Position numbers and translations under genes: made by a program. A model generated the notes under the pieces. It made no database searches and was not told the DNA's origin. It worked only from the letters and a program-made list of their open reading frames with translations. From Parvularculaceae bacterium (GTDB lineage: Bacteria > Pseudomonadota > Alphaproteobacteria > Caulobacterales > Parvularculaceae), in NCBI GenBank assembly GCA_021776435.1, contig JAJFFW010000053.1:1-54311 (forward strand): a stretch of DNA of 54,311 nt. The letters are read 5' to 3'. This document shows, one piece after another, positions 3,154-22,985 of this stretch. Positions within the stretch are counted from its first letter, which is position 1, and every line of letters begins with the position of its first letter.

Positions 3154-3211
3154 AGTTCGTCCTTTCTGGCCAGGTGTCTGCGATTTCAACGTTCTCATAC
3201 AATTCGTACGC

Positions 3212-5022: not shown

Positions 5023-6028
5023 AGCCGCTCTCCCCACGCGATGTCGAAGACGCTTGCGCGCCGAGGGGGGCTAACAATTTTTTTGAAATATGCCAGAGAA
5101 GCGATGCGAGGCTCGCCAGGGCCGTGGCGACAATCAGCGATACATATGGGTTTGCCGTGACCGTATATCCCATCCACGTCTCCAAAGACTCAAAACGCAG
5201 CACGCCCCCCTCTGCGAGCTGAATGCTCTCTCCTGGCCTCAGTTCACGTCTTAACCCTTGTTCTATGACCACGAGGGACGGATTCTCCGGCAGAGAAAAC
5301 CGCCACTCTGCATCCACGTTGTAAAGCGGTTCCTCAAGAGGAAGCCATAACGTAAGTGGTTCGTCACTTCCTGGCGGGATCCACACATTCCCCTGTCGGT
5401 CTTCATTTAAAGGATAGGATGGGAGATGCACTGCCCCCGTATAGGATGCGCCTTGCGCATCAACATAGGTCACAATTGGGGCAAACCCTTTATTGAATGA
5501 TGTATAGAGACGATATGGTGAAAACACCAGCGGTGTATCATCACCAATTTCAATCTCTCGCCAACTATTCCCTTCAGGAATCTCAATCAAACTTCGCGTG
5601 TCCCGCCGCGACATCCCCGGTGCATATTTGATTTCAAAAGACTTTTGTCGAAATCGAATGCGCTCAAGACGAGAATTATGGAACGGTCGTGCAACGCCGA
5701 CAACCATGTTGGGATCAAAAAGAGAATTCTCCGTGACCTCTACATGACCGGTGAACGACGTCAGAGCGTCTACAGCAACAGCAATGGCTAACCCAGCCAA
5801 TCCGACATGGAACGCAAAAAGCGCCGGTTGCGCACTAAGCGTTCGGTTACTCACCAATGCGGCGCAAAGATTGACGACTAAACCACTCAAAGGTGCGACT
5901 ATCCAAATGCCATTCCCGCCGCCGGACTCGGCATTCCAAATCGCAAGGGCGCCCGCCATTAGAGCGAGGGCAATCGTAATTTCGATTCGAGCCAATAATT
6001 TTAAGATGCCCATCAGTCGGTCGATCAT
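5015..6028 (-). CDS. resB: ResB-like cytochrome c biogenesis protein (System II)
   Basis: This is a 337-residue protein with three N-terminal transmembrane segments (about 13-32, 42-60 and 69-90), a large periplasmic domain and a C-terminal membrane helix (about 295-315), the ResB/Ccs1 topology. It starts inside the stop of the 11-heme cytochrome gene (ATGA, 6025-6028) and overlaps ccsA, so the pair is translationally coupled to its probable client. ResB holds reduced apocytochrome and, with CcsA, catalyses thioether formation. It is somewhat shorter than typical 400-500 residue ResB proteins. Sequence conservation in this family is low, so the call rests on topology plus the ccsA neighbour. 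Confidence 0.85.
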   Translation of the reverse strand: MIDRLMGILKLLARIEITIALALMAGALAIWNAESGGGNGIWIVAPLSGLVVNLCAALVSNRTLSAQPALFAFHVGLAGLAIAVAVDALTSFTGHVEVTENSLFDPNMVVGVARPFHNSRLERIRFRQKSFEIKYAPGMSRRDTRSLIEIPEGNSWREIEIGDDTPLVFSPYRLYTSFNKGFAPIVTYVDAQGASYTGAVHLPSYPLNEDRQGNVWIPPGSDEPLTLWLPLEEPLYNVDAEWRFSLPENPSLVVIEQGLRRELRPGESIQLAEGGVLRFESLETWMGYTVTANPYVSLIVATALASLASLLWHISKKLLAPLGAQASSTSRGESGYV

Positions 6029-8412
6029 GGCGGATTTTCACAATTCTCAGACGAATCCCGCATCCAGTCCCGTCCAAATTCTCCGTTACCCGGAGCGCCT
6101 GACGAGCCGCAATCATTCTCACGCCAAGACCCACTGGCGGCAAATGTACGCACTTTCAGCATTGCGTTGAGATAGTATGGACCGTTGGTATAACCCGCGG
6201 TCGTGTTGTTGCGAACCTGAGTGCCGGGCGCTAGTCCCACTTCAGGACCAACATCATTCAAATTGACAAGAAACGCTTTGTTCTTCCAGCCGTGGGGAAT
6301 GGCGGCATGGCACCATGTGCATCGCAGATTACCGATTTTATCTGCGTGCATGCCGTGAAGATTTGCATCGCTGCTATCCGGGCCAGAAAACCCGCTGTCA
6401 AAATCAGTCCCATCTTTGCTCGCATAGCGCGTGAAGGAATGACATTTGAAACAAAGATGATCCTGCGTCCCTCCTCCGCCAGTCTGCTGGTTCCAGGCGC
6501 CTTTCAAAATAAAATCATTATTTGACCCATGCGGTCCCCAAGACCGGCCATTCTCACCACCGATTGGAGTGCTATCACCCGCCGCTGTTTCTGACCCATG
6601 ACAGTCAGAACAATACATCGTCTGCTCGCCTATGTCTGTTCCCACGTTCCACGGAGCGAGCCAGTTTGATGGATCAGTATTGCGCACACCCGGAGAGCGG
6701 CCGGTGCGGTCGATAACCGGGTGCCAGGAGCGGTGATTGCCACCCGTTTCGCCCTGATCACCAACCGGCGCCTGAAATTCCATCGCCTGGTCCGTATACG
6801 CGGTAAGATCGTTCGCGCCGGGCGCAGTGCCGCCTGATGCCCCGCCAAGTTGGGGGGGATTATTATAGCCATAGGTTGAGTGGCATTTCATGCAGACTTG
6901 GTATTCGCGTGTGACATAGCTGTTCGTAACGTCAGTCGCTGCTCCGACTGACGCCATGCCGCGTTTCAAAGTGAAATCGATCGGCTCAAATAAAAACGCC
7001 GGAGAGCCATAAACAGGTTCAACCCCCCACGAGCCTCTTAGAACACCAGAAGCAAGATTTGTATGGATGCCGGGCCCCGAATGATCGTGGGTTCCCGCGA
7101 TATCGGGAGCAGACGGAGAGTCATTGAAAAGGCGGTTTCGTATGACACGATGGGGGTTGTGACAGTCGGTGCATTCAACATGCCGGTTTGATGGATTGCC
7201 ACGGCCAAGTAGCGTCCGCGACTCAAGAAAATCCTTACCAGGTTGCGGCTCACTACTCGCACCGATGTCATGAACTTCTGGCTGCACATCGATCGGCATA
7301 TGCCGGGCGCTCAAAAAGTCCGTCTCAATGTCGGGCGGCTCAAACCCGGCGCCACCCTGCCCCACAAGCGTCGTGTCAAAAGCCGAATGACATTGATAGC
7401 AGGTTTCTTCTATCGCTGACGATCCGCCGGACTTCGGCCCAGCAATGCTGCTCGTTCCCTCACGCAAAAGCCTGTTTGCGCCCTCAACAGTATGGGCGTC
7501 ATGGCAGTTCAGGCACGCACCGCGCCAAACCGGCAACCCGTCCGGAAACTCTCTTAAAACCGCCGCGTTTGTTGCATACAGCTCGTCAGCAACATCGCGA
7601 TGGGAATGGGCGGAGTCCGGCCATCCTTCTTTTTCATGACAGGCCAGACAGATGATATCGATCTGCTCGCGAAAGAGCCCAGTAACCGGGTCGCCATCCT
7701 GAAGACGATTCATGCGGAGAAATTTGAGCTCCTCCCCTGCGTCATCGCGAACGTGTGGATCATGACAAGAAGTACACTGAAGTTCATCATCGGTGAGAGG
7801 CGCAAGCGGGTGCTGGCCTGGCGCCCGGTTATCAATATGTAACGATGCGCTCGGAGCGCGCAGCTCGCCATCCGCCAATGCGAGAGCATCATCATAACGG
7901 AACGATATCGGGTGATCATTCGTGAGGTCTGTTCCGAGACGTCGTGTAAAACCAGTTTGAGCGCCAGCCCCTACCGGCATGCTTCCGTCAGGCGCTGTTC
8001 CGGTCATGGTGATATCCGCCGTCAGCGGATCACCATCCGTCACCGCTCCATTTAAGACGTTGACAGAGCCGATCGCTATCGTTCCGTCGTGACACGAAAG
8101 GCATAGTTTGCTTGACCCTCCGGGTTGACCAAGACCGATCGCATCCATTGAGCTCGAGTCATAGGGAACGTAGGTCGCTGACGATAAGGATCTGTTCCAT
8201 AAAGGCGAAGGTACGGATTCGTTCGCGCCGTGGGGTGTGTGGCAGAAAACGCAAATTTCATCTTCACTCACCGCACGAACTTCACCAGGCCCGTTAACTG
8301 ACAGATTATGCTTGGTGTTACGGATATCGGAAATTGGCGCAGCAAAAGCTATTGTTGCTGCTATAATTGATATAACTGTCAGGAATGAAAAAATTTTAAG
8401 GCGTTTCGGCAT
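6025..8412 (-). CDS. Undecaheme (11 CXXCH) c-type cytochrome with OmcE-like N-terminal module
   Basis: This is a 795-residue secreted protein with signal peptide MPKRLKIFSFLTVISIIAAT. Eleven CXXCH heme sites are present: C54, C104, C213, C255, C300, C338, C414, C507, C601, C654 and C698. Residues about 30-261 carry the same landmarks, in the same order, as the 257-residue tetraheme protein at 15901-16674: KH, CVFCHTPHGAN, PLWN, CLSCHDGT, LGTDLTNDHPI, CTSCHDPH, CLACHEK. The seven further hemes follow this module. The start at 8412 has GGGGAGGG upstream. It is coupled to resB (ATGA overlap) and the NHL propeller gene. It is probably a periplasmic or surface electron carrier, possibly a cap or junction subunit for the tetraheme filament; that role is hypothetical. 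Confidence 0.93.
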   Translation of the reverse strand: MPKRLKIFSFLTVISIIAATIAFAAPISDIRNTKHNLSVNGPGEVRAVSEDEICVFCHTPHGANESVPSPLWNRSLSSATYVPYDSSSMDAIGLGQPGGSSKLCLSCHDGTIAIGSVNVLNGAVTDGDPLTADITMTGTAPDGSMPVGAGAQTGFTRRLGTDLTNDHPISFRYDDALALADGELRAPSASLHIDNRAPGQHPLAPLTDDELQCTSCHDPHVRDDAGEELKFLRMNRLQDGDPVTGLFREQIDIICLACHEKEGWPDSAHSHRDVADELYATNAAVLREFPDGLPVWRGACLNCHDAHTVEGANRLLREGTSSIAGPKSGGSSAIEETCYQCHSAFDTTLVGQGGAGFEPPDIETDFLSARHMPIDVQPEVHDIGASSEPQPGKDFLESRTLLGRGNPSNRHVECTDCHNPHRVIRNRLFNDSPSAPDIAGTHDHSGPGIHTNLASGVLRGSWGVEPVYGSPAFLFEPIDFTLKRGMASVGAATDVTNSYVTREYQVCMKCHSTYGYNNPPQLGGASGGTAPGANDLTAYTDQAMEFQAPVGDQGETGGNHRSWHPVIDRTGRSPGVRNTDPSNWLAPWNVGTDIGEQTMYCSDCHGSETAAGDSTPIGGENGRSWGPHGSNNDFILKGAWNQQTGGGGTQDHLCFKCHSFTRYASKDGTDFDSGFSGPDSSDANLHGMHADKIGNLRCTWCHAAIPHGWKNKAFLVNLNDVGPEVGLAPGTQVRNNTTAGYTNGPYYLNAMLKVRTFAASGSWRENDCGSSGAPGNGEFGRDWMRDSSENCENPP

Positions 8413-9535
8413 AAACGCCCTCCCCATTCAGAGGTGTTAGTTCCTGATAAGCCACAACCCGACCGTTAAACATATCCGCTACGAATACTCGGCCAGATGC
8501 ATCCGTCCAGACACCAGAAGGCAAATAGAATTTCGGCGCGTACTGACCTTCCCCTGTTAGAGTCATCAGCAGATGACCCGCCGGATCAAATACAAGCAAC
8601 CGGCCAAAGAGGGATTCAATCACATAAATGCGGCCATCACCGCCTATAGCAATTCCTTTGGGTCTGGCTAAATCTCCGATCGAAAGTCCATTCTTACCAA
8701 AGACTAAGATCGTTTCTCCTTGGGCAGTCATTTTCTGAATACGAAAATTAAAAGTGTCCGACACGTAGAGACCACCATCATGATAGGTCATGTGAGTTGG
8801 TGTGTTGAAGCGGCCTTCAGCAACACCAGGCCCACCGAATACATCGAGTAAGGTACCCGTCGCGCTAAATTTTTTAACCGTATGATCGCCGGCATCCGCG
8901 ACAAAGATGTCTCCGAAATAAGGTTCGCGCGCCAAGCCTAACGGGCGTTTTAGGGATTCAGAACCAAAACGGCCAATCGGTTGCCCATTCGCCGAAAGAT
9001 GAAAAATTTCCGCTTTTTCTGCGTCGCTGACATAAACCCCTCCCGACCCGTCGGAAACCACAGCCGAAGGCGCTTCAAAAGCCTCTTTGTCAGCAGCCAA
9101 TCGCCAAACAAGAAATTTTGCTTGATCAAGCTTTATTTTTACGACGGCTTTCAGACTCATGTCAGCCACCACGAGCGAGCCATCTGTTTCTGTGAAACCG
9201 TAAACGGGTCGTCGAAGTTCCTGGTATTGCCGTTTCCCGACGACAAGGCCCGCAATGGCTCGTAAAATACTTCTTACGCCGGTGCCCACTTTACTTTGCA
9301 TGGTTTGGAAGTCAGCCTCCCCTATCAACTCTCCAGCATAAGCATACCGCTCGATTTCTGGAGGTTTAGGCCAGGTTTCCGCTTCTGGCGTTGGAGAAAA
9401 ATCAAAAGTTGACTGCCCGGATTCGCTCGCACAGCTGGCTGAAAGGATGCAGCCAACAATAATAGACAGACGAATCCTTTGAGTGACGCGTTGAACACGT
9501 CGGAGCAAGATTGGCAGGCAGTCCCAAACCGGCAT
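8396..9535 (-). CDS. NHL-repeat six-bladed beta-propeller, probable lipoprotein
   Basis: This is about 379 residues with a hydrophobic N-terminus ending in LSASC, a loose lipobox, so outer-membrane anchoring is possible. NHL blades recur from about residue 110 onward (LVVADMS-KAVVKI, VYVSDAEKAEIFHL, IFVADAGDHTVKKF, LYVSDTFNFRIQKM, IYVIESLFGRLLVF, VFVADMFNGRVVAY), separated by RPxG-x-A/G turns. As I recall, NHL-repeat genes accompany outer-surface multiheme cytochromes such as OmcS in Geobacter. It overlaps the 11-heme gene by 17 bases. The start is uncertain: ATG at 9535 or TTG at 9550, neither with a good ribosome binding site. It resembles the NHL lipoprotein at 16847-18046. Confidence 0.85.
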   Translation of the reverse strand: MPVWDCLPILLRRVQRVTQRIRLSIIVGCILSASCASESGQSTFDFSPTPEAETWPKPPEIERYAYAGELIGEADFQTMQSKVGTGVRSILRAIAGLVVGKRQYQELRRPVYGFTETDGSLVVADMSLKAVVKIKLDQAKFLVWRLAADKEAFEAPSAVVSDGSGGVYVSDAEKAEIFHLSANGQPIGRFGSESLKRPLGLAREPYFGDIFVADAGDHTVKKFSATGTLLDVFGGPGVAEGRFNTPTHMTYHDGGLYVSDTFNFRIQKMTAQGETILVFGKNGLSIGDLARPKGIAIGGDGRIYVIESLFGRLLVFDPAGHLLMTLTGEGQYAPKFYLPSGVWTDASGRVFVADMFNGRVVAYQELTPLNGEGVYAETP

Positions 9536-9562
9536 CACACAAACACTCAATTTCTAATTTTG

Positions 9563-10459
9563 TCAGTCCCAAACCATAACGCCGAGAAACCTCAAAGTCT
9601 TGGCCAGATCTCGATTTGCGGATTCAATCGTCCTGATCGCATCAGGGAAATTTTCCGCCTCAATCTTCTCGCGCGCTCGATCTCTCAAAACCTCATTTTG
9701 AGTAAATACTTTCGCGACATGTTTTTGTAACTCCTCCGATGCTGGTAATTCAGACAAAGCAATTGATACGAGCATCTCGTAGCTTCGGTTTTTGTCCACT
9801 TCGTATTTGTATTCCTCAAATGGCGTTTCAAACACGAGCTCATTGACGACAGATTTTCCATCATGCAAATCCCTAACGATGGTCAAGACAGCAGCATACG
9901 CACTTTCCATCACTGTATGCGCTTCTTCATATTTTTTTTTATCCGCGAGGCGTTCAGCTCTTGCAATTTGAACCTCAGCTTCACCGATGCGCATTTTCAG
10001 TTCTGTAGACCATTGGTCCCTGGAGGAGACAGAAAGAGCCCGTAGATAAGCGCCCAGTTGTCTGGCGCCTCTTTCATAACCGGATTTATGCTTTTGTTTA
10101 TCAGTCGCCTTCACTCCAGAAGTCACCATGGCTGCCGTGATCAATCGTAATCCTTCATCAATAGAAGAGCACTGCTCATCAATGCCGCCATTGGTGGCTG
10201 TCATTAAAAGGTTTGCCCAGGCTTTTGCTAGCATCTCACGAGCAGCCTGGCTTCCTTGGCTATCAATTTGCTTTGCTGAAGGTGAATTCAAATATGTTTC
10301 CAGAAGCCGCACTTTTCGAGCACACATGACCTCGGTTTCAGTCATATTAGCGGAGACGCTATCATTTAGCCCCCACGAAGCTACGCCCTTTGACGGCGCC
10401 GCGAACAAAACACTCGCCGCCAAAGAGCCAAGAGCAATATGTTTGCCCCACCCAGTCAT
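9563..10459 (-). CDS. Secreted helical protein of unknown function, paralog A
   Basis: This is a 298-residue protein with a signal peptide (about 1-27). The rest is almost entirely alpha-helical and charged. I recognise no family. It shares the segment LVFETPFEEYKYEVDKN with LVFDTPKDAYEYELGRT in the next gene upstream, and a similar C-terminal helix pair (A-I-x-x-I/L-E-x-A, K-x-(I/L)-R) ending in a hydrophobic tail, so the two are paralogs. Only 3 bases separate them. Placed between the triheme cytochromes and the NHL/11-heme genes, it is presumably a periplasmic part of the same system, perhaps a heterodimer with its paralog. It has no heme motif or catalytic signature. Confidence 0.75.
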   Translation of the reverse strand: MTGWGKHIALGSLAASVLFAAPSKGVASWGLNDSVSANMTETEVMCARKVRLLETYLNSPSAKQIDSQGSQAAREMLAKAWANLLMTATNGGIDEQCSSIDEGLRLITAAMVTSGVKATDKQKHKSGYERGARQLGAYLRALSVSSRDQWSTELKMRIGEAEVQIARAERLADKKKYEEAHTVMESAYAAVLTIVRDLHDGKSVVNELVFETPFEEYKYEVDKNRSYEMLVSIALSELPASEELQKHVAKVFTQNEVLRDRAREKIEAENFPDAIRTIESANRDLAKTLRFLGVMVWD

Positions 10460-10462
10460 AGT

Positions 10463-11335
10463 TTAACCCGGGATAAAAAATCCGCTCATGCGAATGCCCT
10501 TCAGGAGTTCTTCCGTTGCCGCTTCTAGATCTCCGATGGCGGCGACATAATTGCCCTCGGCAGCTTTCTTTTTCGCATTTGCGCGCAGTTCCTTTGCCCC
10601 CCCGCGCTTACTCTCCATGCCTTTCAAGAGTGATGGCGCGGGTCTTTTATTTTCTATCGCAAACTCCAGCAATAAAAAGTGGCTAGCTGTGCGGCCTAAC
10701 TCATATTCATAGGCATCTTTTGGCGTATCAAAGACCAGCGAACGCACAAGAGTTTGCCCTTCTCTCGCCGTTCGAATATCACCACGGGTGATTTCATAGG
10801 CGCGATCAAGCATCGCAAGAGCCTTCTCATAGTGTTTGGCTTTCTTGAGTGCATCGGCTTCCGCCATCAACCGCTTGATAATCTCCGCATGTTGTATTGT
10901 GGTTCCAGCGGGACTGGCGTCACTCACCCGCTCATAAGCAGATAAGAAAACTTCTACTGTATGGCGTCTTTTCTCGAACGCTTCTTCCTCACGCCGCTTT
11001 TTTATATCCTTTACCGAAAGCCTACGGGCTTCAACGTTCACAAGTCCCAAAGCTCTGTCGAGCTTTTGATCAGCTTGGGCGAAGTCTCCGTCTGATAAAA
11101 GCGATTTGGCCTCTTCAACTAGGCGCCGCGAGTCTTCCAACTTTGCGATAGCGCCAAGATCTCCACTTTGTGTAATAGTCCGTGACGAGAAAGAGTCGGT
11201 AACGAGCCGCTCAAGAAAAACGGATTTTTGCGCTACCAGTCCAGCTTCTACGGGGATGCGCTCGCTCGCCGACACGGCTGTCGTTACAATTGCAACCGCC
11301 GCCATCGTCAACAACGCTACAGCTTTAAATCTCAT
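10463..11335 (-). CDS. Secreted helical protein of unknown function, paralog B
   Basis: This is a 290-residue protein with signal peptide MRFKAVALLTMAAVAIVTTA. The start at 11335 is preceded by GGAAGGAT; longer in-frame starts would bury the signal peptide. The mature part is helical with TPR-like repeats of the form (A)LLSDGDFAQADQKLDRAL, KAKHYEKALAMLDRAYE and AAEGNYVAAIGDLEAA, three units with the same G/H-x-Y/F-x-x-A-x-x-x-L pattern. It is paralogous to the following gene through the LVFDTP-Y-YE block. Function is unknown. A periplasmic scaffold for cytochrome assembly is a guess from context. Confidence 0.75.
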   Translation of the reverse strand: MRFKAVALLTMAAVAIVTTAVSASERIPVEAGLVAQKSVFLERLVTDSFSSRTITQSGDLGAIAKLEDSRRLVEEAKSLLSDGDFAQADQKLDRALGLVNVEARRLSVKDIKKRREEEAFEKRRHTVEVFLSAYERVSDASPAGTTIQHAEIIKRLMAEADALKKAKHYEKALAMLDRAYEITRGDIRTAREGQTLVRSLVFDTPKDAYEYELGRTASHFLLLEFAIENKRPAPSLLKGMESKRGGAKELRANAKKKAAEGNYVAAIGDLEAATEELLKGIRMSGFFIPG

Positions 11336-11368
11336 AGCACATCCTTCCATAGGCTGGGGCGCCAAAAC

Positions 11369-12328
11369 CTAACCGCCTTCGCTCGCCCAATTCGACCGAT
11401 CGGCGAGCGATTTCAGTTCTTGCGCCGTTTTCGGTTGTGCGTGGCACCTGCGACAATCGGATACGGGAAATGCGACCTTACCATGACAAACGCCGCATTT
11501 TTGCCCAAGTAAAATACCAGCCATACTGATCTGATTAGCCCCCTTTTGTGGCGTAAATATTTCGTCGTGACAATTAGAACAATCCAGCCATTGCGTGTGC
11601 TGCAAATGCGGATAAACCACATTCGGCATACTGCCTTTTACCTGGCGTATAATCACAAGGTCGAGCAAGAAGGGGTCCGCTTTCGGGTTATCTAGTTCAT
11701 AACGCGGCGCGATTTTCTCATCCTGCAAAGACTTCACCCAATCAATTTTATTACCATCATTCGTTTTCGGCAGGCCTTCGAATGCGACACTTGGCCACTG
11801 TAAGAGCGCTGTTCCTGGATTGGCTGCGTCGTGAATACCATCGCGCGCTGGTGGCGCATTGGGGGAACTGGACGGTCTTTTCAACAATCGATTGAAGCTA
11901 TTTGCACCGCCAGGCTCAGACGCAGCTACGAGAACCGGCGCCGGCTCTACCGGCGCTCTTCTATTCGAGACGGAGGTCGCCTCGACGGGAGCCGGCTCGA
12001 CAAGCGCGGGTGTCGAATTGCTATCCTCCATAGCAATCTTTCCCGCATTGCCCATGGCTGTGTCTGTCTCGACAGCACTTGCACTCGAAACGAGGAGGTC
12101 TTCGGTCAAATTATCTTCAGACGAAGGCTTGAATTGATCTTCATTCAATTTCGCCACAGGAATTTCGGCCACGCTGGAGGTATTAGAAATCGTCGCTTTA
12201 TCTATTCCCCTCCCATTACTGAAGAGAGAACCTCCACCGAAAAGGAACATACCCACCAAAACCGCTACCCCAACGAGCGCAATCGTCGCGAAGCGACTAC
12301 TCAGAAATTTGTCCATTCTATTCGACAT
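11369..12328 (-). CDS. Membrane-anchored triheme c7-type cytochrome, long form
   Basis: This is 319 residues. One transmembrane helix (about 13-33) is followed by a long, poorly conserved Pro/Ala/Ser/Glu-rich linker (about 40-160), then a C-terminal cytochrome domain with three CXXCH sites (CSNCH, CGVCH, CRRCH) preceded by the YPHLQHTQWLDC histidine pair that supplies distal ligands. This is the c(7)-type triheme domain. Related to the 209-residue protein at 19263-19892, sharing G-I/V-HD-AN, N-x-x-DWV-x-L, and Q-x-G-A-N-Q ahead of the second heme. The linker would let the heme domain reach across the periplasm toward the outer-membrane barrel encoded in the same operon. Confidence 0.88.
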   Translation of the reverse strand: MSNRMDKFLSSRFATIALVGVAVLVGMFLFGGGSLFSNGRGIDKATISNTSSVAEIPVAKLNEDQFKPSSEDNLTEDLLVSSASAVETDTAMGNAGKIAMEDSNSTPALVEPAPVEATSVSNRRAPVEPAPVLVAASEPGGANSFNRLLKRPSSSPNAPPARDGIHDAANPGTALLQWPSVAFEGLPKTNDGNKIDWVKSLQDEKIAPRYELDNPKADPFLLDLVIIRQVKGSMPNVVYPHLQHTQWLDCSNCHDEIFTPQKGANQISMAGILLGQKCGVCHGKVAFPVSDCRRCHAQPKTAQELKSLADRSNWASEGG

Positions 12329-12350
12329 CTTCGAAAACCAATCCAGTGAT

Positions 12351-12761
12351 TTACTGCGTGACAGGGGCGACTAACCGATCAGCGGTACTGTTATGCACAC
12401 GTGTTTTCATCCCGGTCCGGCCTGAATGACAAAGAACACAATTTTCAACTCCCCATGCAATTTCGCCGTTATGGCAAGCGCCACAATATTCACCGTCGAA
12501 TATCTTCAACATGTTTATATCATTCCCGCCCGCCTTGAATTTAAACCCCAGGTCAGTGTGGCAAACCTTGCAGCGAAATCGAATACGATGAAACCAGTGT
12601 GGAAAAACAACCGGCCTCATGCCAGCATCATCGGAGTAGTTATTAATTACGACATCGCCATATTCCGCGCGCGCATCGAGTGTTAAGATCGCCGTTATGG
12701 CAAAGATAATTGCAAGCACTAGGATATAAAATCCGCATAAGGCATTTCTTCTGCTTGCCAT
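12351..12761 (-). CDS. Small secreted triheme c7-type cytochrome
   Basis: This is 136 residues. A signal peptide or anchor (about 9-32, ending ARA-EY) is followed by a compact domain with three heme sites (CKVCH, CGACH, CVLCH) and the ligand motif FPHWFHRIRFRC. This is the short triheme c7 type, a periplasmic electron shuttle family best known from Geobacter (PpcA-like). The mature part has exactly six histidines: three in CXXCH, plus PH, FH and VH, enough for bis-His ligation of all three hemes. Related to 19903-20286 (EY-DVV-N, RPV-FPHWFHRIRFRCKVCH shared). It lies 22 bases upstream of the long triheme gene. Confidence 0.9.
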   Translation of the reverse strand: MASRRNALCGFYILVLAIIFAITAILTLDARAEYGDVVINNYSDDAGMRPVVFPHWFHRIRFRCKVCHTDLGFKFKAGGNDINMLKIFDGEYCGACHNGEIAWGVENCVLCHSGRTGMKTRVHNSTADRLVAPVTQ

Positions 12762-12778
12762 TTATCTTCGCTCCTCTC

Positions 12779-14641
12779 TCAATTCTCGCCTAAACTTCGT
12801 TGAATTCGAAGCATAAATAAATTGCCGAGACCTTCGTCTTCATAAAACAACGATGCTTCAGCGATGAATGAGATCTGTCCAACTCTATAATCAAGAGTAT
12901 TTCGCCATTCATGGTGTTGAATATCATCTCCAAGCTCGGGTGTTGGGTCATTCGAAAATAGTTCTTCAAGTTCAAAAATATTCACTGCCAGCTCTGATCG
13001 GTAGCTCAGATTGAGTATATTAAATATCGAGCGATAACCATAGGCCAGTCGGCCGCTGGCAGTGATAAACGTATCATCGGCGCCGTTCAGGCTCCGCCGT
13101 ATCCCATTAAAGGTCATGACGCCTGTTAGGCTTTGACGTTCATCAAATTTCTGGCGTCGGTTAAACTGAAGTTGCGCCGATTGCAGATTATCACCAACCC
13201 CCGTTAATTCACGAAAATCTCGAACTGAAAAGTTAAATGACGAGGAAGCCCAACGCGATGAGCGATTATGATTGACTGTCAGTCCGTGCGCTACAACCGT
13301 CGTAACGCCCGAATTATTTGTCTGATCGCGATCAATTGCCGCGGGGTCAATACCGAACTCCTGCGTCAGCGAAAACCTTACTGGCCCCTCCTCAAATAGG
13401 TTGAATTCCCGTTCAAGGGTTTGGTTGACCGCCGCCGTAGGGTCTTTCAACCCGCCTTCGGCGTTCGTGAACCCGGTTTCGCCTGTGGCGCGGGCGCCCC
13501 ACCGCCATTCATAACCACCAAATTTTCTCGTTTTGGACGTATAATTTCCAGTGGCGTTAACCGTAGCGAACCGTTGCTCAGAGTTTTGCCCACGAGCACG
13601 CACATTGCTGTTGTTGACGACTCCACCACGAAAACCCAGGCGGAAATGTAATCTCTCATGCAATGGAATATTGACATTCACGATACCTAGGAGCCGATCA
13701 TTGCGACGCTCGTTCGTTACACCGCTCGATTCCGTTATAATTTCTTCGGTCCGTGCGCGTAAGTTGCCATCGATATCAAAATTACGGCTTGAAGGAGCCC
13801 AGTGAAAAGTATCGACAGCTTGAATTGATTGACGTTTGGTTCCGGCTATTTTTGAGATATCATCGTCTTGAACAAAGGTAATAATTAAATCATTCCGTAC
13901 GGACTCGCTCGGGGCCATCTGCAAGGCAATATTCGCCGTCAAAGTATCGTCGTTAAACGTCCCGTCAGTTGGGGATACAAATTTGCTTGTCGAATAATCG
14001 GTAGTCGCCGTAATACTTTTGAGCCCGAGAAAATTTTTTCCGAATTCTTTATTGGCGCTTGCAGAAAGTCGTTTGCCATTTCTATCCCCTGTGCCTTCTT
14101 GATCGCTGCGGTCGAAAGAACCGCTGAGCGAGGTGCGAAATTTCGGCGTGATTTTACTTCTGTTAGAAAAAGAAACACGGTCACGTACAAAGTCCGCACT
14201 CGCCAATCTACCCGATACCCGGCTGTCTAGCCTGGAAATGGAAACGGATGTGGGGAAACGGCTTGATGGTAAGATACTCAAGCCAATATCTCCGCTAAGG
14301 CGGATTGCCTGTCCGTTAGACCCAGTACGTCCAGATTGACGTTCATATCCAACAGCACCGCCCCCCTCAATTTGGGCAAACCAAGGCTGCCAAATGTAAC
14401 TTTTAGCGTTAACATCGAGTGTGTTTTGCAAGGTCAGTTCGCCTTCCTGCCCTGGCGCATTACGTGAGATAACGGCAGTGCTAGCGCTGCCGGAAAAAGT
14501 CGCCGGAGCGACTTTAGACGCAGGCATGCTCGCACAGCCGCAAAGAAGCACCGGCACAAACAGATGTGCTGCGCACAACCTGCAATAACCGAAAAGACCA
14601 CGGGCCCCAGCTGCCGCCCCAATTCTTCCCCAACCGGTCAT
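12779..14641 (-). CDS. Outer-membrane beta-barrel protein (candidate porin of an electron conduit)
   Basis: This is a 620-residue protein. The N-terminus ends in LLCGC (C36), a possible lipobox. The rest is dominated by alternating polar/hydrophobic strands with frequent aromatic girdle residues and Asn/Ser/Asp turns (for example YSTSKFVSP, FRLGFRGGV, LQFNRRQKF, LSYRSELAV), and the chain ends in LFMLRIQRSL, a final strand. About 20 or more strands fit the length. It has no TonB box or plug. Its place between a parvulin isomerase and periplasmic triheme cytochromes matches porin-cytochrome conduits (MtrB/OmbB-like in role), in which a barrel sheathes cytochromes through the outer membrane. Homology to those families was not established. 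Confidence 0.75.
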   Translation of the reverse strand: MTGWGRIGAAAGARGLFGYCRLCAAHLFVPVLLCGCASMPASKVAPATFSGSASTAVISRNAPGQEGELTLQNTLDVNAKSYIWQPWFAQIEGGGAVGYERQSGRTGSNGQAIRLSGDIGLSILPSSRFPTSVSISRLDSRVSGRLASADFVRDRVSFSNRSKITPKFRTSLSGSFDRSDQEGTGDRNGKRLSASANKEFGKNFLGLKSITATTDYSTSKFVSPTDGTFNDDTLTANIALQMAPSESVRNDLIITFVQDDDISKIAGTKRQSIQAVDTFHWAPSSRNFDIDGNLRARTEEIITESSGVTNERRNDRLLGIVNVNIPLHERLHFRLGFRGGVVNNSNVRARGQNSEQRFATVNATGNYTSKTRKFGGYEWRWGARATGETGFTNAEGGLKDPTAAVNQTLEREFNLFEEGPVRFSLTQEFGIDPAAIDRDQTNNSGVTTVVAHGLTVNHNRSSRWASSSFNFSVRDFRELTGVGDNLQSAQLQFNRRQKFDERQSLTGVMTFNGIRRSLNGADDTFITASGRLAYGYRSIFNILNLSYRSELAVNIFELEELFSNDPTPELGDDIQHHEWRNTLDYRVGQISFIAEASLFYEDEGLGNLFMLRIQRSLGEN

Positions 14642-14644
14642 TCA

Positions 14645-15682
14645 TTAATTATCTCTCAATACACTGACGGGTGAGATGGCCGTTTTAATCCTCGCATTCC
14701 CGCGTAATTCAATCAAAAATTCCTTCCAACGCCTGTCGCTCTCCTCACGCTCATATAACGCCAGTGCGCGCTCACGAATATCGCTGAACGCCTGAAGGTG
14801 AGCAGGTTCGCGAGCATTAACTTTGAAGATCGATATTCCTTCAAGAATTCTGAATGGCGCAGTATAAGCACCGGGTGAAAGATCTTTTATTGCAGTGACA
14901 ACGACACTGGCGAGCTGTCCGGCATGAACCAACCCAATCCCCCCCCCATCAACGGAAGATACATGGCCTGAATACGTCTTCGCCAATTCTGCGAACGGCT
15001 CCCCTGCCATGAGGCGAGCATGCAGTTCAGAGGCTTGCGATTGCGCCGCTTCCCAATCTTCGGTCAAGCCATGTGGCGGAACCGGAAGGAGGAGGATAGC
15101 AAGGTCAACTGCCGCCGGTGTAGTGAAGAGCTCCGGACGACTTTCGTAAAACCCTATGATGTCTGCGTCTGTCACTTCGCCAAGCGCCATAACATTTTCG
15201 CGCAAAGCATCAATCTTCGTTGCATTGAGTATTTCCTCTTCGATGCCCGCTTTTTTGACAGCAAACAATTCCCTTGTTTTATCGTCACCAGCGTATCTCT
15301 CTTCCAAAGCCGCCAGTTGTTCCGCCGTTTTTTTCGGATCTCCCTCTAAGCCGCGCCGATTTGCTTCTTGCACCAGCAAAGTGTCTGAAATCAGTAACTC
15401 ATAAGCTTCGTTCGCAATCTCTTCACGGCGATTATTATCAACATTGTGAAAATAGGTTTGAGCGACATACACTGCATAGAAATCATGAAATTCTTCAGCA
15501 GTAATAATTTCGTCATTAACGACGGCAATCGCCCCAGCAGGAAGTTCCGTGTCCGCCACTCTTTGCACAAGCTCTTCCTGAACGCTCGCTGCCTCTGCCG
15601 AAAAAGACCCGACACAAATAAAAACGAGCGCAGCCGCAGCAGTACAAACGGATCGATTGAGAAACATGTGCGAGATATCCAT
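14645..15682 (-). CDS. Periplasmic parvulin-type peptidyl-prolyl isomerase (PpiC/SurA-like)
   Basis: This is 345 residues. A signal peptide ends near SAEA-AS. An N-terminal SurA-like helical chaperone domain (about 40-165, with DEIITAEEFHDFY) precedes a parvulin domain (about 175-290) with the family pattern HARLMAGEPFAELAKTYSG, DGGGIGLV and APFRILEGISIFKV. These proteins fold outer-membrane barrels and secreted cytochromes. It directly precedes the beta-barrel gene (3-base gap), its likely client. As I recall, PPIase genes also accompany filament-cytochrome loci in Geobacter. The start is uncertain between 15700, 15682 and 15667; 15682 has GGGTGG upstream. Confidence 0.88.
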   Translation of the reverse strand: MDISHMFLNRSVCTAAAALVFICVGSFSAEAASVQEELVQRVADTELPAGAIAVVNDEIITAEEFHDFYAVYVAQTYFHNVDNNRREEIANEAYELLISDTLLVQEANRRGLEGDPKKTAEQLAALEERYAGDDKTRELFAVKKAGIEEEILNATKIDALRENVMALGEVTDADIIGFYESRPELFTTPAAVDLAILLLPVPPHGLTEDWEAAQSQASELHARLMAGEPFAELAKTYSGHVSSVDGGGIGLVHAGQLASVVVTAIKDLSPGAYTAPFRILEGISIFKVNAREPAHLQAFSDIRERALALYEREESDRRWKEFLIELRGNARIKTAISPVSVLRDN

Positions 15683-15849
15683 TGAATTCACCACCCTCAT
15701 TCGTATTTCAATGATAGCCCAAGTGTATCATCATTTTGATTACTGCTCCGAAAAATAAAGGGCTTAAACTGCTGTAGATTGTCGCAGAGCACGTCATCTT
15801 CATGAAAGATAACTAAGTATTCCGGACTGAGCAGTTCTAACCAAAACAA

Positions 15850-15876
15850 AAAACCGGGCAAATTCTGCCCGGTTTT
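15850..15876 (-). terminator. Rho-independent terminator after the tetraheme cytochrome gene
   Basis: This is a perfect 11-bp stem (AAAACCGGGCA / TGCCCGGTTTT) with a 5-base loop, followed on the minus strand by TTTGTTTTGG. It sits about 24 bases past the stop of the tetraheme cytochrome gene and ahead of the parvulin operon. The run of A/T on both sides makes it usable in either direction. Partial read-through would make the filament subunit the most abundant product of the region. Confidence 0.85.
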
Positions 15877-15900
15877 AAAATTCGCATTTTTACAACCTGC

Positions 15901-16674
15901 CTATTTCACATGACAGGCTAAACAGACAGCACTATCCGAGTTCGATAAACGCATAAAAGCCAGGTTATTCGCCCCTTGGGCAATATGCGGATCATGACAC
16001 GATGCACACTCAACGAAAGGTTGATCCTCCGCACCATTGGGATTAAGGCGCGTGTAGAGAATCATATCTGTCTTATCACGAACGCCCGCCGTGCCAATCG
16101 TGGTGTCGACCCACCAGCGAGGACGCCCTAAAATAGTTGCGCTCGACAAACCATTTGTCGTGTTTTTGAAATCCGGGTCGATCTGCGTAGTCGCAGCTGT
16201 CGGTGTAAAGCCGCCATATTGAATACCGATCGGGTGATCATTGGTCAAATCCGTACCAAGATTAGGAACCGGTGTTCCTGTTAATGCCAGAAGACCTGCA
16301 TCCGTATTGCCGGAACCCATGCCGCGTCCAGGCGCATTGATGACCGCATCACGCGCCTGCGTTCCATCATGGCAGGTGAGGCAGGCAATCGAGACAGACC
16401 CGACTGGCAAGATATCCCCGTCAATGGTGGTATTATCGTAGGTCGAATAGGCCCCTGGGGCCGTTCCGGCCACCTTATTCCATAACGGCGCTTCTACAGC
16501 CGTGTTCGCACCGTGCGGGGTATGGCAATAAACACAGACTTCATTGTTGTCGTTTCCGCCCGACGCCAAGTCATGCTGTGAGCCATTGATCTGAGCAAAA
16601 GCACTACCGGAAGCAGACATCAATAATACGCTGGCCGATACTGCCATGAGTTTAGGTAGATGTAACTGGAGCAT
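15901..16674 (-). CDS. Secreted tetraheme c-type cytochrome, OmcE-like candidate nanowire subunit
   Basis: This is 257 residues with a signal peptide cleaved near AFA-Q (27/28). Four heme sites: CVYCH 47-51, CLTCH 98-102, CASCH 223-227, CLACH 251-255. The mature chain holds exactly eight histidines: four in CXXCH plus H34, H54, H147 and H230, the number needed for bis-His ligation of all four hemes. Landmarks QHD, HTPHGAN, PLWN, CHDGT, NDHPI, CHDPH and a C-terminal CHVK fit, from memory, the OmcE group of extracellular filament cytochromes. It has its own FNR-like site upstream and terminator downstream. RBS AAGGGGGG. Filament formation is inference; a soluble doubled-CXXCH cytochrome is the alternative. 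Confidence 0.9.
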   Translation of the reverse strand: MLQLHLPKLMAVSASVLLMSASGSAFAQINGSQHDLASGGNDNNEVCVYCHTPHGANTAVEAPLWNKVAGTAPGAYSTYDNTTIDGDILPVGSVSIACLTCHDGTQARDAVINAPGRGMGSGNTDAGLLALTGTPVPNLGTDLTNDHPIGIQYGGFTPTAATTQIDPDFKNTTNGLSSATILGRPRWWVDTTIGTAGVRDKTDMILYTRLNPNGAEDQPFVECASCHDPHIAQGANNLAFMRLSNSDSAVCLACHVK

Positions 16675-16776
16675 ATGCCCCCCCTTTTGTCAGTCCCCGT
16701 GGCGAGCCCTCACGCGCATCCACTTGGACAACTTCTGTTTCGATTTTTACGTCATCACAACTCTGCTCTTTGTTCA

Positions 16777-16790
16777 TTGACGAAGGTCAA
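16777..16790 (-). promoter_or_regulatory. FNR/FixK-type operator upstream of the tetraheme cytochrome gene
   Basis: TTGAC-GAAG-GTCAA has perfectly symmetric arms and fits the FNR/FixK consensus TTGA-N6-TCAA. It lies about 110 bases upstream of the tetraheme start, in the 172-base gap before the NHL gene. A TAAAAA that could be a -10 element lies about 30 bases downstream, giving a spacing somewhat longer than the usual -41.5. The FNR-type regulator at 18302-19063 has the ETVSR recognition helix expected to read this sequence. Confidence 0.6.
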
Positions 16791-16846
16791 GTTTTAAAGC
16801 GAAATTTACAACTTCTCCGCGCCAAAGTGTCGCATGAACGAGTGTT

Positions 16847-18046
16847 TTAGTCCTCCCCACCCGGAGCAAGTACGTTCCTGGCCTCAGCTTCATCGATAAG
16901 CTCAAAGCTATACCCTGCAGTCAGATGATAGTCGCGCCCTGCGGGCCAGTCTTCGGGTAGAAAGGCCGGACGAAAAACGTCAATCTTGCTGTAGAACTGG
17001 TCAACGACATAAATTCTGCCATCCAAATCGACACTGACCCCAGCCGGTAGAATAAAATTCCCTGGCCCCGGCGTTTCACTTCTCTCGCCAATTGACAACA
17101 AAACGCTTCCATCACTCGTAAATATTTGCACATTCCCGAACCCCGTATCAGCGACATAGATGCGACTGTCCGCATCCATTGCGATCCCTCTCGCATGAGA
17201 GAAATCACCTGCGTAACGCCCCGGTTTTCCAAATGTGTTATTCACTTTTAATTCTGGAGAGAACGACTGCACACGGAAATTTCCCGTATCGAGAACACGC
17301 AAATTATGATCGGCGCCCATTGCAGCATTCAGTGGAAGATTAAACTCGCCCTCTGCCGAACCACGTTCACCGATATCGCCAAGGTGGCGTCCCTCCTGGT
17401 CAAATATACGCACTCTGTGATTTTGGCTGTCAACACCACCCGTATCGACAACGAATATTCGCGATCCATCGGGATCTACAGCGACGCCGGTAGGGCGCTC
17501 TAACATTTCTTCCCCACCAACCGCACCCAGAAACTTGCCGTCGCGGTTAAAAATCACCACTCGCTTTGCTGAACCGTCACACACATACAATCGCCCCGCA
17601 TCATCGAGGGCCAAGCCGAGAGGTTTGACCAAACGCCCATTGCCATTCACACCGATTTCCACATAGCTTTTTTCATTAAGATCAAGCATGTGAACGCGTC
17701 GGCTGACCGTGTCACTCAAATAAATTCGCCCATGTCTGACTTCAATATCGAAGGGTTTGGAGAAAGCCTTCCCTCGAATTTGCTCTCCAGTGGCAAACCG
17801 TCGAAACCGATCTCCTGAGGTCTCCACCATGACATCGCCACTGCCCGTAAGGGTACGCTCATACACAAAACGGGGAAGCGCCGGCGCCGGCGGATAAACT
17901 GGTATTTTCACCTCTTCCAGCACCGGTACGGTGGCGCATGCCGCAGCCGCAATCGCCAAGAGACCCGCCGAAAGCCACCTGATCAGCCAGCCTGATTCTC
18001 TTCTCGTGATGAAGTCAGATCCATGTTGTGAACGGTCATTTATCAT
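16847..18046 (-). CDS. NHL-repeat beta-propeller lipoprotein
   Basis: This is 399 residues from ATG 18046, which has AGGAGG and AGGGGGG upstream; a longer frame exists but lacks support. An N-terminal hydrophobic segment ends in IAAAAC, a probable lipoprotein site. Six NHL blades follow (IYLSDTVSRRVHML, LYVCDGSAKRVVIF, IFVVDTGGVDSQNHRVRIF, LRVLDTGNFRVQSF, IYVADTGFGNVQIF, IYVVDQFYSKIDVF), each after a K/R/L-P-x-G-V/L-A turn. It is paralogous to the NHL protein at 8396-9535. It is first in the minus-strand order, ahead of the tetraheme cytochrome, and divergent from the FNR gene. A surface or outer-membrane partner of the cytochrome is plausible; ligand unknown. Confidence 0.87.
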   Translation of the reverse strand: MINDRSQHGSDFITRRESGWLIRWLSAGLLAIAAAACATVPVLEEVKIPVYPPAPALPRFVYERTLTGSGDVMVETSGDRFRRFATGEQIRGKAFSKPFDIEVRHGRIYLSDTVSRRVHMLDLNEKSYVEIGVNGNGRLVKPLGLALDDAGRLYVCDGSAKRVVIFNRDGKFLGAVGGEEMLERPTGVAVDPDGSRIFVVDTGGVDSQNHRVRIFDQEGRHLGDIGERGSAEGEFNLPLNAAMGADHNLRVLDTGNFRVQSFSPELKVNNTFGKPGRYAGDFSHARGIAMDADSRIYVADTGFGNVQIFTSDGSVLLSIGERSETPGPGNFILPAGVSVDLDGRIYVVDQFYSKIDVFRPAFLPEDWPAGRDYHLTAGYSFELIDEAEARNVLAPGGED

Positions 18047-18301
18047 TTTCGCCCCCCTTTCCTCCTGAAAATCAGGACTTTCTCGAGCGATACCGCGAAC
18101 AGTTTTGACGACGGAAGCCATTTAATGCGAATATGCTCATATAGCTCTCGCTCGAGAAGCCCTAAATGGGTCAACTGCGGCAAATGGACCGTGCACATGA
18201 CGTCGCAGGTGAATTTTTGGGAACTGTGATAAGTTGCCCTCAATTTCAAAGATCCGATAATATCAAGCCGGGAATTATTCTAAATTCGTGAGGCGTAGCC
18301 G

Positions 18302-19063
18302 ATGATCCGTACACATCTATCCGTCGTTTCTGTTGACGATAGCTGCTTTGAATGCCCGGTAAGCAGCAAAGGTGTCTGCTTGCGGTATGGAGCGAGTTTG
18401 CGCGATGCAGTGTCGAAATACTCGGTCGACGCCATAATCAAGAAGGGGTCTGCCCTTGCCTATGCCGGGGATCGAGCAAATGCTTTGTTCATTATCAAAA
18501 AGGGTGAAATCAAAGCCATTCGATCACTACGCGATGGTCGACAGCAAATTGTTGGATTCGCTCGCCCCGGCGATATTATCGGCAATCCCCAGGGTCAGGA
18601 TTCATTTGACTGCACTTTCGAGGCTTTGACCGACAGCGTTCTATGTAAAACTCGCACCAAAGATCTCCATAAATTGTCCTCAGATCACCCCGAATACAAC
18701 AGCGCATTCATGGATGCCGTATCGAATGAAATTCTACGAAGAGGCGATCAGAATGTATTGCTGGGTCGCAAGAGAGCGGAAGAGCGTCTCGCGAGTTTCA
18801 TCACCGAGCGAGCCATCGATGTGCAACATGATAACAGTTTCGTTAAGCTGGATGTAATCAACCTCCCAATGACACGGTTGGACATCGCTGATTATCTCGG
18901 CTTAACGATCGAAACCGTTAGCCGGGTGCTGACAATTTTTAAAAATCGCAATTTAATAAAGATCGTGAACAAATCACGTATTGAAATTCTCGACCATGAT
19001 TCATTAGCTGCCTTGGCTTGTGAGGAAGAGTCGCGACATTTCAACACGCGGATCTTCCTCTAA
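18302..19063 (+). CDS. FNR-type oxygen-sensing transcription regulator (CRP/FNR family)
   Basis: This is 253 residues. It has an N-terminal cysteine cluster C15-x2-C18-x7-C26 plus C115 in ALTDSVLC, the position of FNR C122, so a [4Fe-4S] sensor is expected. A cyclic-nucleotide-binding-like beta-roll fills about 45-125, then the dimer helix, then a winged helix with recognition sequence GLTIETVSRVL. E, S and R in ETVSR are the FNR residues that read TTGAT/C half-sites. The Cys spacing is like alphaproteobacterial FnrL/FnrN rather than E. coli FNR. It stands divergent from the NHL-cytochrome genes, inside the cytochrome locus, so it probably switches that locus on at low oxygen. Confidence 0.92.
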   Translation: MIRTHLSVVSVDDSCFECPVSSKGVCLRYGASLRDAVSKYSVDAIIKKGSALAYAGDRANALFIIKKGEIKAIRSLRDGRQQIVGFARPGDIIGNPQGQDSFDCTFEALTDSVLCKTRTKDLHKLSSDHPEYNSAFMDAVSNEILRRGDQNVLLGRKRAEERLASFITERAIDVQHDNSFVKLDVINLPMTRLDIADYLGLTIETVSRVLTIFKNRNLIKIVNKSRIEILDHDSLAALACEEESRHFNTRIFL

Positions 19064-19262
19064 GCTGTAAGGAATAGCTGGTGGCTCTGAAATTTGGTGG
19101 GGAGAAATGTTAACGACGTGCATTTAGGAATTGTCTTTCGTGAACCTTATGCATTCAATTGTTGGCTCTGGCTCGACCCATTTCTCAGCTGCGGCTCCAA
19201 AACGCCAAGAATCCTGCGGAAAATCAATGATTCGGCATATGCGCACCGCAAGAATGTAAGTA

Positions 19263-19892
19263 ATGACAGAAAAACGTCATATTGATCGGTTTCCAATTTG
19301 GGGGGTGGCGCTCTGCCTGTTGCTTGTCCAGTGCCAATCTAACAATGGTGACCTGCCGACCAAATCTGTCTTTGAACAAAGTATTGAGCCGGAAAAAACA
19401 GCGGTTTTAACCGAAAATGTCAAAACAACGCCGTGGAAACCCTTAAACCTCGATGGCGTCCACGATCCGGCCAATGCGGTATTATCTTATCTGCAAGAAC
19501 CTGACGAAGCCCTGTCTCTTTTATCGGTTGCGCCAGAACCGGGTGGAAACAATGTGGACTGGGTGGAAGCGTTGGAGAGCGGATTGATTTCCCCACGCTC
19601 TAAGATTCAACCGGACTGGAAAGTCAATAATCTCGATCTCGATATCATAATGCCCAACACGGCTGGTATGCCGCAGGTCGTTTTTCCGCACCGCCAACAC
19701 ACAGAATGGCTCGATTGCTCGAACTGCCATGACAAGATTTTCAAGGCCAAAACCGGAGCCAACCAATTCGGCATGCTTGAGATCCTGCAAGGTGAATATT
19801 GTGGCCGCTGCCACGGGGCCGTCTCTTTTCCTTTAACCCAGTGTTTGAGGTGCCACAGCAGGGACCACGACCAAGCCACACTGGCCAAATAA
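19263..19892 (+). CDS. Triheme c7-type cytochrome, short lipoprotein-like form
   Basis: This is 209 residues. A hydrophobic N-terminus ends in LLLVQC, an imperfect lipobox, suggesting a lipoprotein. The C-terminal domain carries CSNCH, CGRCH and CLRCH with the ligand pair in FPHRQHTEWLDC. It is related along its length to the 319-residue protein at 11369-12328: GVHDPAN, NNVDWVEALE, LDCSNCHDKIF and GANQFGMLEIL. It lacks the long Pro-rich linker of that protein. It lies 10 bases upstream of the small triheme gene, the same two-gene set as at 11369-12761 but in the opposite order. Start RBS is weak. Confidence 0.87.
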   Translation: MTEKRHIDRFPIWGVALCLLLVQCQSNNGDLPTKSVFEQSIEPEKTAVLTENVKTTPWKPLNLDGVHDPANAVLSYLQEPDEALSLLSVAPEPGGNNVDWVEALESGLISPRSKIQPDWKVNNLDLDIIMPNTAGMPQVVFPHRQHTEWLDCSNCHDKIFKAKTGANQFGMLEILQGEYCGRCHGAVSFPLTQCLRCHSRDHDQATLAK

Positions 19893-19902
19893 AGCAACGT
19901 TT

Positions 19903-20286
19903 ATGCAAAGTTTCTTTAAGCTCGCTGCAGTGATATTCACGGCCGGAATCGCCACTACCTTTGGTGCAGCAACTGCGGAATATGCTGACGTCGTTCTCAA
20001 CCATAACGCAGAAGCCTCTGGCGAGCGCCCTGTTATTTTTCCTCACTGGTTTCATCGCATCCGCTTTCGCTGCAAGGTCTGTCACCATGAGCTCGCCTTT
20101 GAAATGCGCGCTGGAGCAAATGAAGTCACAATGAATGACCTGCAAGAAGGTAAATTCTGCGGAATGTGTCACGATGGACAAATCGCGTGGGGACTGGAGA
20201 ATTGCGGGCTTTGCCACTCCGGACGACCAGGCTTGAAGCCCGGCATAATTGGCGATCACAAAACGCTTGGCCCCGGACGGTGGTAA
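19903..20286 (+). CDS. Small secreted triheme c7-type cytochrome, second copy
   Basis: This is 127 residues with a signal peptide ending ATA-EY. Three heme sites (CKVCH, CGMCH, CGLCH) and the motif IFPHWFHRIRFRC match the small triheme protein at 12351-12761; QIAWGLENCGLCHSGR parallels EIAWGVENCVLCHSGR. It is expected to be a periplasmic electron carrier. The mature chain has more histidines than the paralog (CHH, GDH), so surface charge and ligands may differ. It is likely co-transcribed with 19263-19892 and perhaps followed by hemA. Confidence 0.88.
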   Translation: MQSFFKLAAVIFTAGIATTFGAATAEYADVVLNHNAEASGERPVIFPHWFHRIRFRCKVCHHELAFEMRAGANEVTMNDLQEGKFCGMCHDGQIAWGLENCGLCHSGRPGLKPGIIGDHKTLGPGRW

Positions 20287-20298
20287 AGTGTGGGATTC

Positions 20299-20340
20299 TT
20301 GACTTAAATCATACCATTTGAAGCCTGATTCTGATATAAA
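20299..20340 (+). promoter_or_regulatory. FNR-type promoter upstream of hemA
   Basis: TTGAC-TTAA-ATCAT (20299-20312) matches the FNR/FixK site at 9 of 10 arm positions if T/C is allowed at position 5. A TATAAA lies at 20335-20340. If the operator centre is at -41.5, the start would be near 20347 and TATAAA falls exactly at -12 to -7, the class II FNR layout. The leader to hemA would then be about 224 bases. In the rest of 20287-20570 I see no gene. Confidence 0.5.
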
Positions 20341-22956: not shown

Positions 22957-22985
22957 CAGTAAAGATTTTTGTCTCAGACTAGGGG

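Follow-up and report, generated by a model that had tools for sequence, protein, structure and literature searches.

The open reading frame at positions 15901..16674 (minus strand, 257 aa) of the window, i.e. the whole analysed stretch of 54,311 nucleotides, is, judging from its sequence and from the neighbouring genes, the uetA gene of a uet (undecaheme electron transfer) cluster. It encodes an OmcE-like tetraheme c-type cytochrome and a candidate filament subunit. The sequence-only reading had already named it a candidate nanowire subunit of the OmcE family, and this candidacy is supported by the homology with OmcE and by the match of the haem ligands. From this homology, the formation of a UetA filament is probable. 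A second protein of the same cluster, the undecaheme cytochrome UetJ, begins with a domain that also resembles OmcE.

The UetA translation presents CXXCH motifs at residues 47, 98, 223 and 251, and histidines at residues 5, 34, 51, 54, 102, 147, 227, 230 and 255. H5 lies within an N-terminus that, by eye, resembles a signal peptide; past this region eight histidines are present, those outside the CXXCH motifs being H34, H54, H147 and H230. The initial description of four haem motifs and only four other mature histidines is thus borne out on the translation. Taken by itself, this count is weak evidence, because exactly eight mature histidines were found in 67 of the 98 UetA sequences that we aligned (nine in 23 and ten in 8). 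None of the 98 sequences lacks H34, H51, H102, H147, H227, H230, H255 or any of the eight haem cysteines, and H54 is conserved in 97 of them, the sole exception being a solitary gene copy (L080). Among these 98 rows, two records contribute a pair each. They leave out two short relatives from genome G155 (L004 and L005, present in alignments A1 and A2), L110 (length filter), L023 (in A1 and A2 only), and relatives that are incomplete or interrupted (L024/L121, L027-L030 and L033, among other places).

Among 177,635 distinct PDB sequences, phmmer retrieved two matches to UetA up to E = 1, namely 9YUQ (1.4e-25) and 7TFS (1.8e-18), the latter being the OmcE filament subunit of Geobacter sulfurreducens as presented in the available part of PMC12954529. 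A profile built from 68 UetA relatives matched the same two entries (5.5e-42 and 8.4e-42, respectively), and its only further match up to 0.01 was OmcS (0.0063), over a short CXXCH stretch. Each of the eight ligand histidines of UetA faces a histidine of OmcE across two aligned stretches, which jointly contain all four haem sites; the C-terminal stretch is weak with one sequence (1.1) and clear with the profile (2.8e-09). The four c-type haem motifs and the four distal histidines come in the same order in both proteins. Unlike the bare histidine count, this one-to-one match is strong evidence for the identity of UetA, and the membership in the OmcE family that had first been proposed is supported by these searches. 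UetA could otherwise be an ordinary periplasmic tetraheme cytochrome (of c3, c554 or NrfB/NrfH type) sharing with OmcE just its common CXXCH motifs, and the only Pfam matches are indeed local ones to short CXXCH families (Paired_CXXCH_1, Cytochrome_C7). This explanation is highly improbable, as the similarity to OmcE extends beyond the haem motifs (PLWN, LGTDL.NDHP) and covers every haem site. Moreover, NCBIfam also gave local CXXCH families only, the c3 and Nrf models being weak and under their cut-offs. A c3 or NrfB/NrfH identity, with models under cut-off and contradicted by the OmcE and 9YUQ matches, was rejected, as was a chance cluster of CXXCH motifs.

In the filaments of OmcE and OmcS, an interfacial haem receives one histidine from each of two subunits, while OmcZ has no such haem shared between subunits, as far as described in the available parts of PMC12954529 and PMC9473688. 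In the mechanism that we propose, UetA would be exported and loaded with four bis-His haems, and would polymerise outside the cell into an OmcE-like filament. One haem per subunit would borrow a histidine from the neighbouring subunit, perhaps H34, which is a guess from its position. UetA might instead be a relative of OmcE that does not polymerise, i.e. a single small tetraheme carrier, at the surface or in the periplasm, operating from the porin complex to UetJ and drawing its eighth histidine from its own chain. The portions of the Uet literature that were accessible hold no filament evidence for any Uet protein, and the accessible text of PMC10734462 terms UetA merely an extracellular tetraheme cytochrome; in addition, an insert of about 25 residues sets UetA apart from OmcE. 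We nevertheless consider such a carrier unlikely, since the family conserves the ligand positions of OmcE, a proven filament subunit, as described above, and since the terminator following uetA (see below) suggests production in excess, as for a polymer subunit.

The insert lies within residues 147-223 and is absent from OmcE, from 9YUQ and from the N-terminal domain of UetJ (UetJ-N); relative to OmcE, it might alter packing. The stretch from H147 to C223 counts 71-97 residues in the 98 UetA sequences and 46-60 in 21 UetJ-N. An AlphaFold2 model of UetA computed from a 68-row alignment reached a mean pLDDT of 60, residues 171-220 being its most confident part, with blocks at pLDDT 85-92. With this low-confidence model, nothing passed E <= 0.001 in Foldseek, where the best E value was 1.7, and no cytochrome was found among the 50 matches listed.

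The uetA gene lies inside a same-strand cluster that extends from position 18121 down to at least 6025, with the order NHL, uetA, PpiC, presumed barrel, two triheme c7 cytochromes, two genes without assigned role, second NHL and a protein with 11 CXXCH motifs. Uet is a porin-cytochrome system published from Tenderiales and Gallionella, and the set given in the part of PMC10734462 at hand comprises the tetraheme extracellular UetA, the isomerase UetB, the porin UetC, the trihemes UetDEG, the NHL proteins UetHI and the undecaheme UetJ. We assign the cluster to Uet because its gene content matches this list: the window encodes a tetraheme UetA (4 CXXCH) and an undecaheme UetJ (11 CXXCH) together with counterparts of the PPIase UetB, the trihemes UetDEG and the NHL proteins UetHI. 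The letters D/E/G and H/I are used here as groups, no single letter being tied to a single gene, and UetF was not identified.

All the genes of the cluster are on the minus strand. Upstream of uetA, 16847..18121 encodes a UetH/I-like NHL-repeat protein (Pfam NHL 6.4e-20) with a lipobox-like AAAC, recognized by a simple pattern. Downstream come the PpiC-type peptidyl-prolyl isomerase UetB (14645..15700; Pfam Rotamase 2.2e-11) and a 620-aa protein (12779..14641) that matched no Pfam or NCBIfam model and that we presume to be the beta-barrel UetC from its position, which tblastn relatives also occupy in 52 of 72 loci. They are followed by two UetD/E/G-like triheme c7-type cytochromes, at 12351..12761 (TIGR04257 9.7e-18) and at 11369..12328 (2.8e-17, with a hydrophobic N-terminus). 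Two further proteins gave matches under the cut-offs, at 10463..11365 (TPR_2, 0.02) and at 9563..10459 (YfdX, 0.00094); tblastn matches to the latter occur in 61 of 80 loci, cross-hits being possible. The second UetH/I-like NHL-repeat protein (8396..9550; Pfam NHL 2.2e-16) precedes uetJ (6025..8427). In the proposed mechanism, the triheme cytochromes would move electrons through the periplasm, UetC and its partners would pass them through the outer membrane, and the PpiC isomerase and the NHL proteins would aid export and assembly.

Several other genes of the window surround this cluster. Beside uetJ, ResB-like and CcsA-like cytochrome c maturation genes are found at 4219..6028 on the minus strand (Pfam ResB 1.7e-06, Cytochrom_C_asm 1.5e-23), and a ResB relative also lies 3' of UetJ in locus L046; these are parts of one cytochrome c maturation system, and parts of a second one (Cytochrom_C_asm and CcmE) are located at 24288-25504. 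On the plus strand, 19263..20286 carries a second pair of triheme c7-type cytochromes (TIGR04257 1.6e-18 and 4.4e-19). Propeller-type proteins stand at the cluster end (863-3228, with Reg_prop in 863-2116), and their relatives in 5 of 80 loci are upstream of uetA instead. The region 21898-24080 encodes two class I cytochrome c proteins with several domains each (Cytochrome_CBB3), with a relative in 44 of 80 loci, mostly upstream of uetA. The protein at 20571-21872 matches Pfam Aminotran_1_2, and we take it to be an ALA synthase. Finally, 30966-32933 encodes a subtilase (Peptidase_S8 1.6e-32) whose protease domain is preceded by a long acidic VEDQVEAEVED-like repeat tract, noticed by eye.

This gene order recurs among the relatives. 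Raw tblastn counts (e.g. UetJ in 80 of 80 loci) contain cross-hits between UetA and UetJ, between the two NHL proteins and among the trihemes, and position-restricted counts were used instead; they concern named loci with enough flank and genes on the same strand, and some triheme and NHL cross-hits may remain in them. Downstream of uetA, relatives were found for PpiC in 72 of 76 loci, for the two trihemes in 69 of 71 and 66 of 68, for the 10463-11365 protein in 58 of 66, for the second NHL protein in 56 of 59 and for UetJ in 49 of 59; the NHL protein upstream of uetA was present in 51 of 72. No UetJ was detected within 10 kb in the other 10 of the 59 loci, and in several UetJ-less loci the second NHL protein is already near the end of the stretch, so the cluster may continue beyond it. 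Two of these ten loci, L080 and L108, show no cluster. They correspond to a solitary uetA-like gene, with no uet neighbours 10 kb either side, in Ramlibacter alkalitolerans and Polaromonas sp. RGN.1, respectively, and both strains also carry a clustered uetA copy (L064 and L073). A contig labelled 'Candidatus Tenderia' (L081) presents uetA, PpiC, triheme and triheme in the order of the window; tblastn detected no barrel in it, and it stops short of UetJ.

The product of uetJ is an 800-aa undecaheme cytochrome whose N-terminal part (about residues 32-266, i.e. 7630..8334 on the minus strand) forms an OmcE-like tetraheme domain according to profile and ligand match. A UetJ profile matched 7TFS at 9.6e-30 across profile positions 8-236, and the eight ligand histidines and eight cysteines are all kept in 21 of 21 UetJ N-terminal domains, the window included. 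The 20 relatives taken as UetJ, for which a minimum of 8 CXXCH motifs was required, all have 11 of them; the interrupted UetJ of L121 was excluded. AlphaFold2 modelling of UetJ with 20 rows gave a mean pLDDT of 33. Because its OmcE-like domain keeps all eight ligand histidines, UetJ could plug into a UetA filament, and it could occupy one end of it, its first 265 residues joining as base or cap. We tentatively suggest, at somewhat less than even odds, that UetJ is a built-in nanowire adaptor, in which an OmcE-like subunit is fused to a seven-haem body, joins the UetA filament by exchange of histidines between subunits and anchors the wire at one of its ends, either on the porin complex or on an external electron partner. 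Loci of this class would in that case bring together the genes for subunit, adaptor, conduit and assembly factors, and how a nanowire plugs into the cell would become testable. Provided that UetA polymerises, UetJ is a concrete candidate for the piece joining the wire to the cell.

Two expression signals border uetA. An exact palindrome TTGAC-N4-GTCAA (TTGACGAAGGTCAA), which we take to be the FNR/FixK consensus, lies upstream of the gene at 16777..16790, and an intrinsic-terminator-like hairpin directly follows it on the minus strand at 15850..15876 (12 pairs, T-rich tail, -17.0 kcal/mol). In the window alone, neither signal stands out clearly. Palindromes with up to one mismatch number 13 vs. 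8.13 expected, 8 of 100 shuffles giving as many, and a single site upstream of uetA could be due to chance. Similarly, 22 terminator-like sites were found in 4000-20600 vs. a shuffled mean of 19.3, and a hairpin taken singly could be fortuitous, the stem after uetA being the longest listed. The gene had been described as standing alone between these two signals; the exact box and the hairpin are present, and the word fits a transcript only, not the gene, which is one member of a same-strand cluster.

The comparison of loci is more informative about the terminator. Defining a strong terminator as a hairpin at or below -12 kcal/mol followed by a T-rich tail, no more than 120 nt past the stop codon, we detected one after uetA in 55 of 97 loci and none in the other 42. 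The other cluster genes were followed by such a terminator in 5 of 90 loci for PpiC, 3 of 57 for the barrel, 5 of 87 and 12 of 87 for the two c7 cytochromes, 10 of 78 for the TPR-like protein, 4 of 73 for the second NHL protein, 9 of 63 for the first and 1 of 18 for UetJ. This count excludes the duplicates L117 (= L038) and L129 (= L037) as well as L133 (without uetA), and the partner genes were restricted by position. A separate count on the 98 UetA rows gave 57 terminators vs. a shuffled mean of 5.0. The recurrence of the terminator fits over-production of a wire subunit: with its own terminator, uetA would be made in excess of the other genes.

The exact FNR-type palindrome was found in 9 of 97 uetA upstream regions (0.2 expected from shuffling), and 20 of 97 contained it with up to one mismatch (2.9 expected), while 54 of 97 have only poor boxes (three or more mismatches). 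The loci do not count as independent cases: the nine with an exact box form about five groups on the tree. Of the two signals taken at first as marks of an abundant subunit, the terminator holds in more than half of the loci, whereas the box is above chance in a minority only. Divergent to the cluster, 18302..19063 (plus strand) encodes an FNR/FnrL-like regulator of the Crp family (FnrL model 2e-36; 125.5 bits, below the cut-off of 300 for this model), with cysteines at residues 15, 18, 26, 104, 115 and 240, five of them within the first 115 residues; an FNR-like gene is also located upstream in L035, L036 and L046. The boxes suggest low-oxygen expression of uetA, which would probably pass through this adjacent regulator.

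As proposed for Tenderiales, electrons could be taken up through the same filament from Fe(II), minerals or cathodes instead of being sent outward, which would be compatible with UetA as filament subunit and which we hold to be nearly as probable as not. In the accessible part of the literature, Uet is described in cathode-oxidising Tenderiales and, as a predicted pathway, in iron-oxidising Gallionella, and Gallionella-type loci (L049, L109) are among our relatives. On the other hand, the genome of the window had no match to the RuBisCO large subunit, the FNR-type boxes point to expression at low oxygen, and a manganese reducer is likewise reported to have undecaheme cytochromes in the part of PMC13264449 at hand. 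The presence of NarG in this genome fits either direction, and no ccoN match was found in it.

Scanning contigs with the profile of alignment A1 gave at least 588 candidate stretches, of which 560 were confirmed and the best 80 kept. These best 80 of 560 belong mostly to Beta- and Gammaproteobacteria, plus two from Magnetococcales, three with the label Alphaproteobacteria or Kiloniellaceae, and single ones labelled Nitrospirae and Caldilineales. The uet carriers include culturable bacteria such as Dechloromonas hankyongensis (L075) and Ramlibacter alkalitolerans (L064). Among sampled whole genomes, UetA was matched at 1e-8 in 23 of 398 genomes of the phylum and in 2 of the 385 that belong to the class (its own genome included in both), and at 0.001 in 0 of 24 other genomes of the family and 0 of 16 genomes of the order. 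In a quick maximum-likelihood tree of the 98 UetA rows (96 different), computed without bootstrap, the window groups with L046, L035, L036 and L043, with an SH-aLRT of 94, under the star threshold of 95, and with L046 on a long branch; L035, L036 and L043 are labelled Alphaproteobacteria or Kiloniellaceae. This grouping and the presumed ALA synthase at 20571-21872 are our grounds for regarding the host as an apparent alphaproteobacterium. The GC content shows no clear break. Horizontal gain is plausible.

Two short OmcE-like proteins, L004 and L005, were also found in genome G155 of the same class (L135 8929-9525 and L136 near 7156-7800, both on the minus strand). They have a methionine at the position of H54 (HTPM for HTPH) and no uet neighbours, and these two stretches gave no further ORF of at least 130 aa with a CXXCH motif. 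One of them is near genes that look, by eye, like type II secretion genes. These proteins are possibly a His/Met-ligated variant of OmcE.

That OmcE homologues are widespread is already known, as they were reported across bacteria and archaea (PMC12307469, available in part), and the Uet cluster is itself published. A partial literature search, with the key OmcE and Uet papers outside it, retrieved no paper tying Uet to OmcE or noting the OmcE-like domain of UetJ. Solved structures of OmcE-type filaments come from Geobacter. Should UetA polymerise, such a wire would be tied to a defined gene set, i.e. a presumed porin, trihemes, an isomerase, NHL proteins and an undecaheme partner, present in records labelled Beta- and Gammaproteobacteria, Magnetococcia and some Alphaproteobacteria, with Gallionella types included.

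Finally, we compared the products of the cluster with known systems. Like OmcE (7TFS), UetA has four CXXCH motifs and eight aligned ligand histidines, and the similarity concerns the first 150 and the last 40 residues. The middle of UetA is longer, with a spacing of 76 between H147 and C223 in the window protein vs. 52 in OmcE, and holds a W-rich segment (85 of 98 UetA and 0 of 21 UetJ-N, with a loose pattern). Among solved proteins, the one nearest to UetA in the phmmer search, 9YUQ (titled 'Putative multiheme cytochrome c', with 16 chains of 218 aa), displays the same ligand pattern and a shorter middle (43 residues vs. 76 between H147 and C223). At the level of the locus, PCC3 combines a porin with extracellular and periplasmic multiheme cytochromes (MHCs), as here, but its MHCs are very large (medians of 34 and 21 haems in the available part of PMC5566968) and it includes a five-helix inner-membrane protein; membership of the window cluster in PCC3 was rejected, as giant MHCs are lacking. 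The Uet system of Tenderiales and Gallionella has corresponding genes in the window, in an order common with the 'Candidatus Tenderia' contig as far as that contig reaches. It differs here in being carried by an alphaproteobacterial-looking genome with no RuBisCO match, where ResB/CcsA-like genes and an FNR-like regulator border the cluster and an extra triheme pair lies on the opposite strand.
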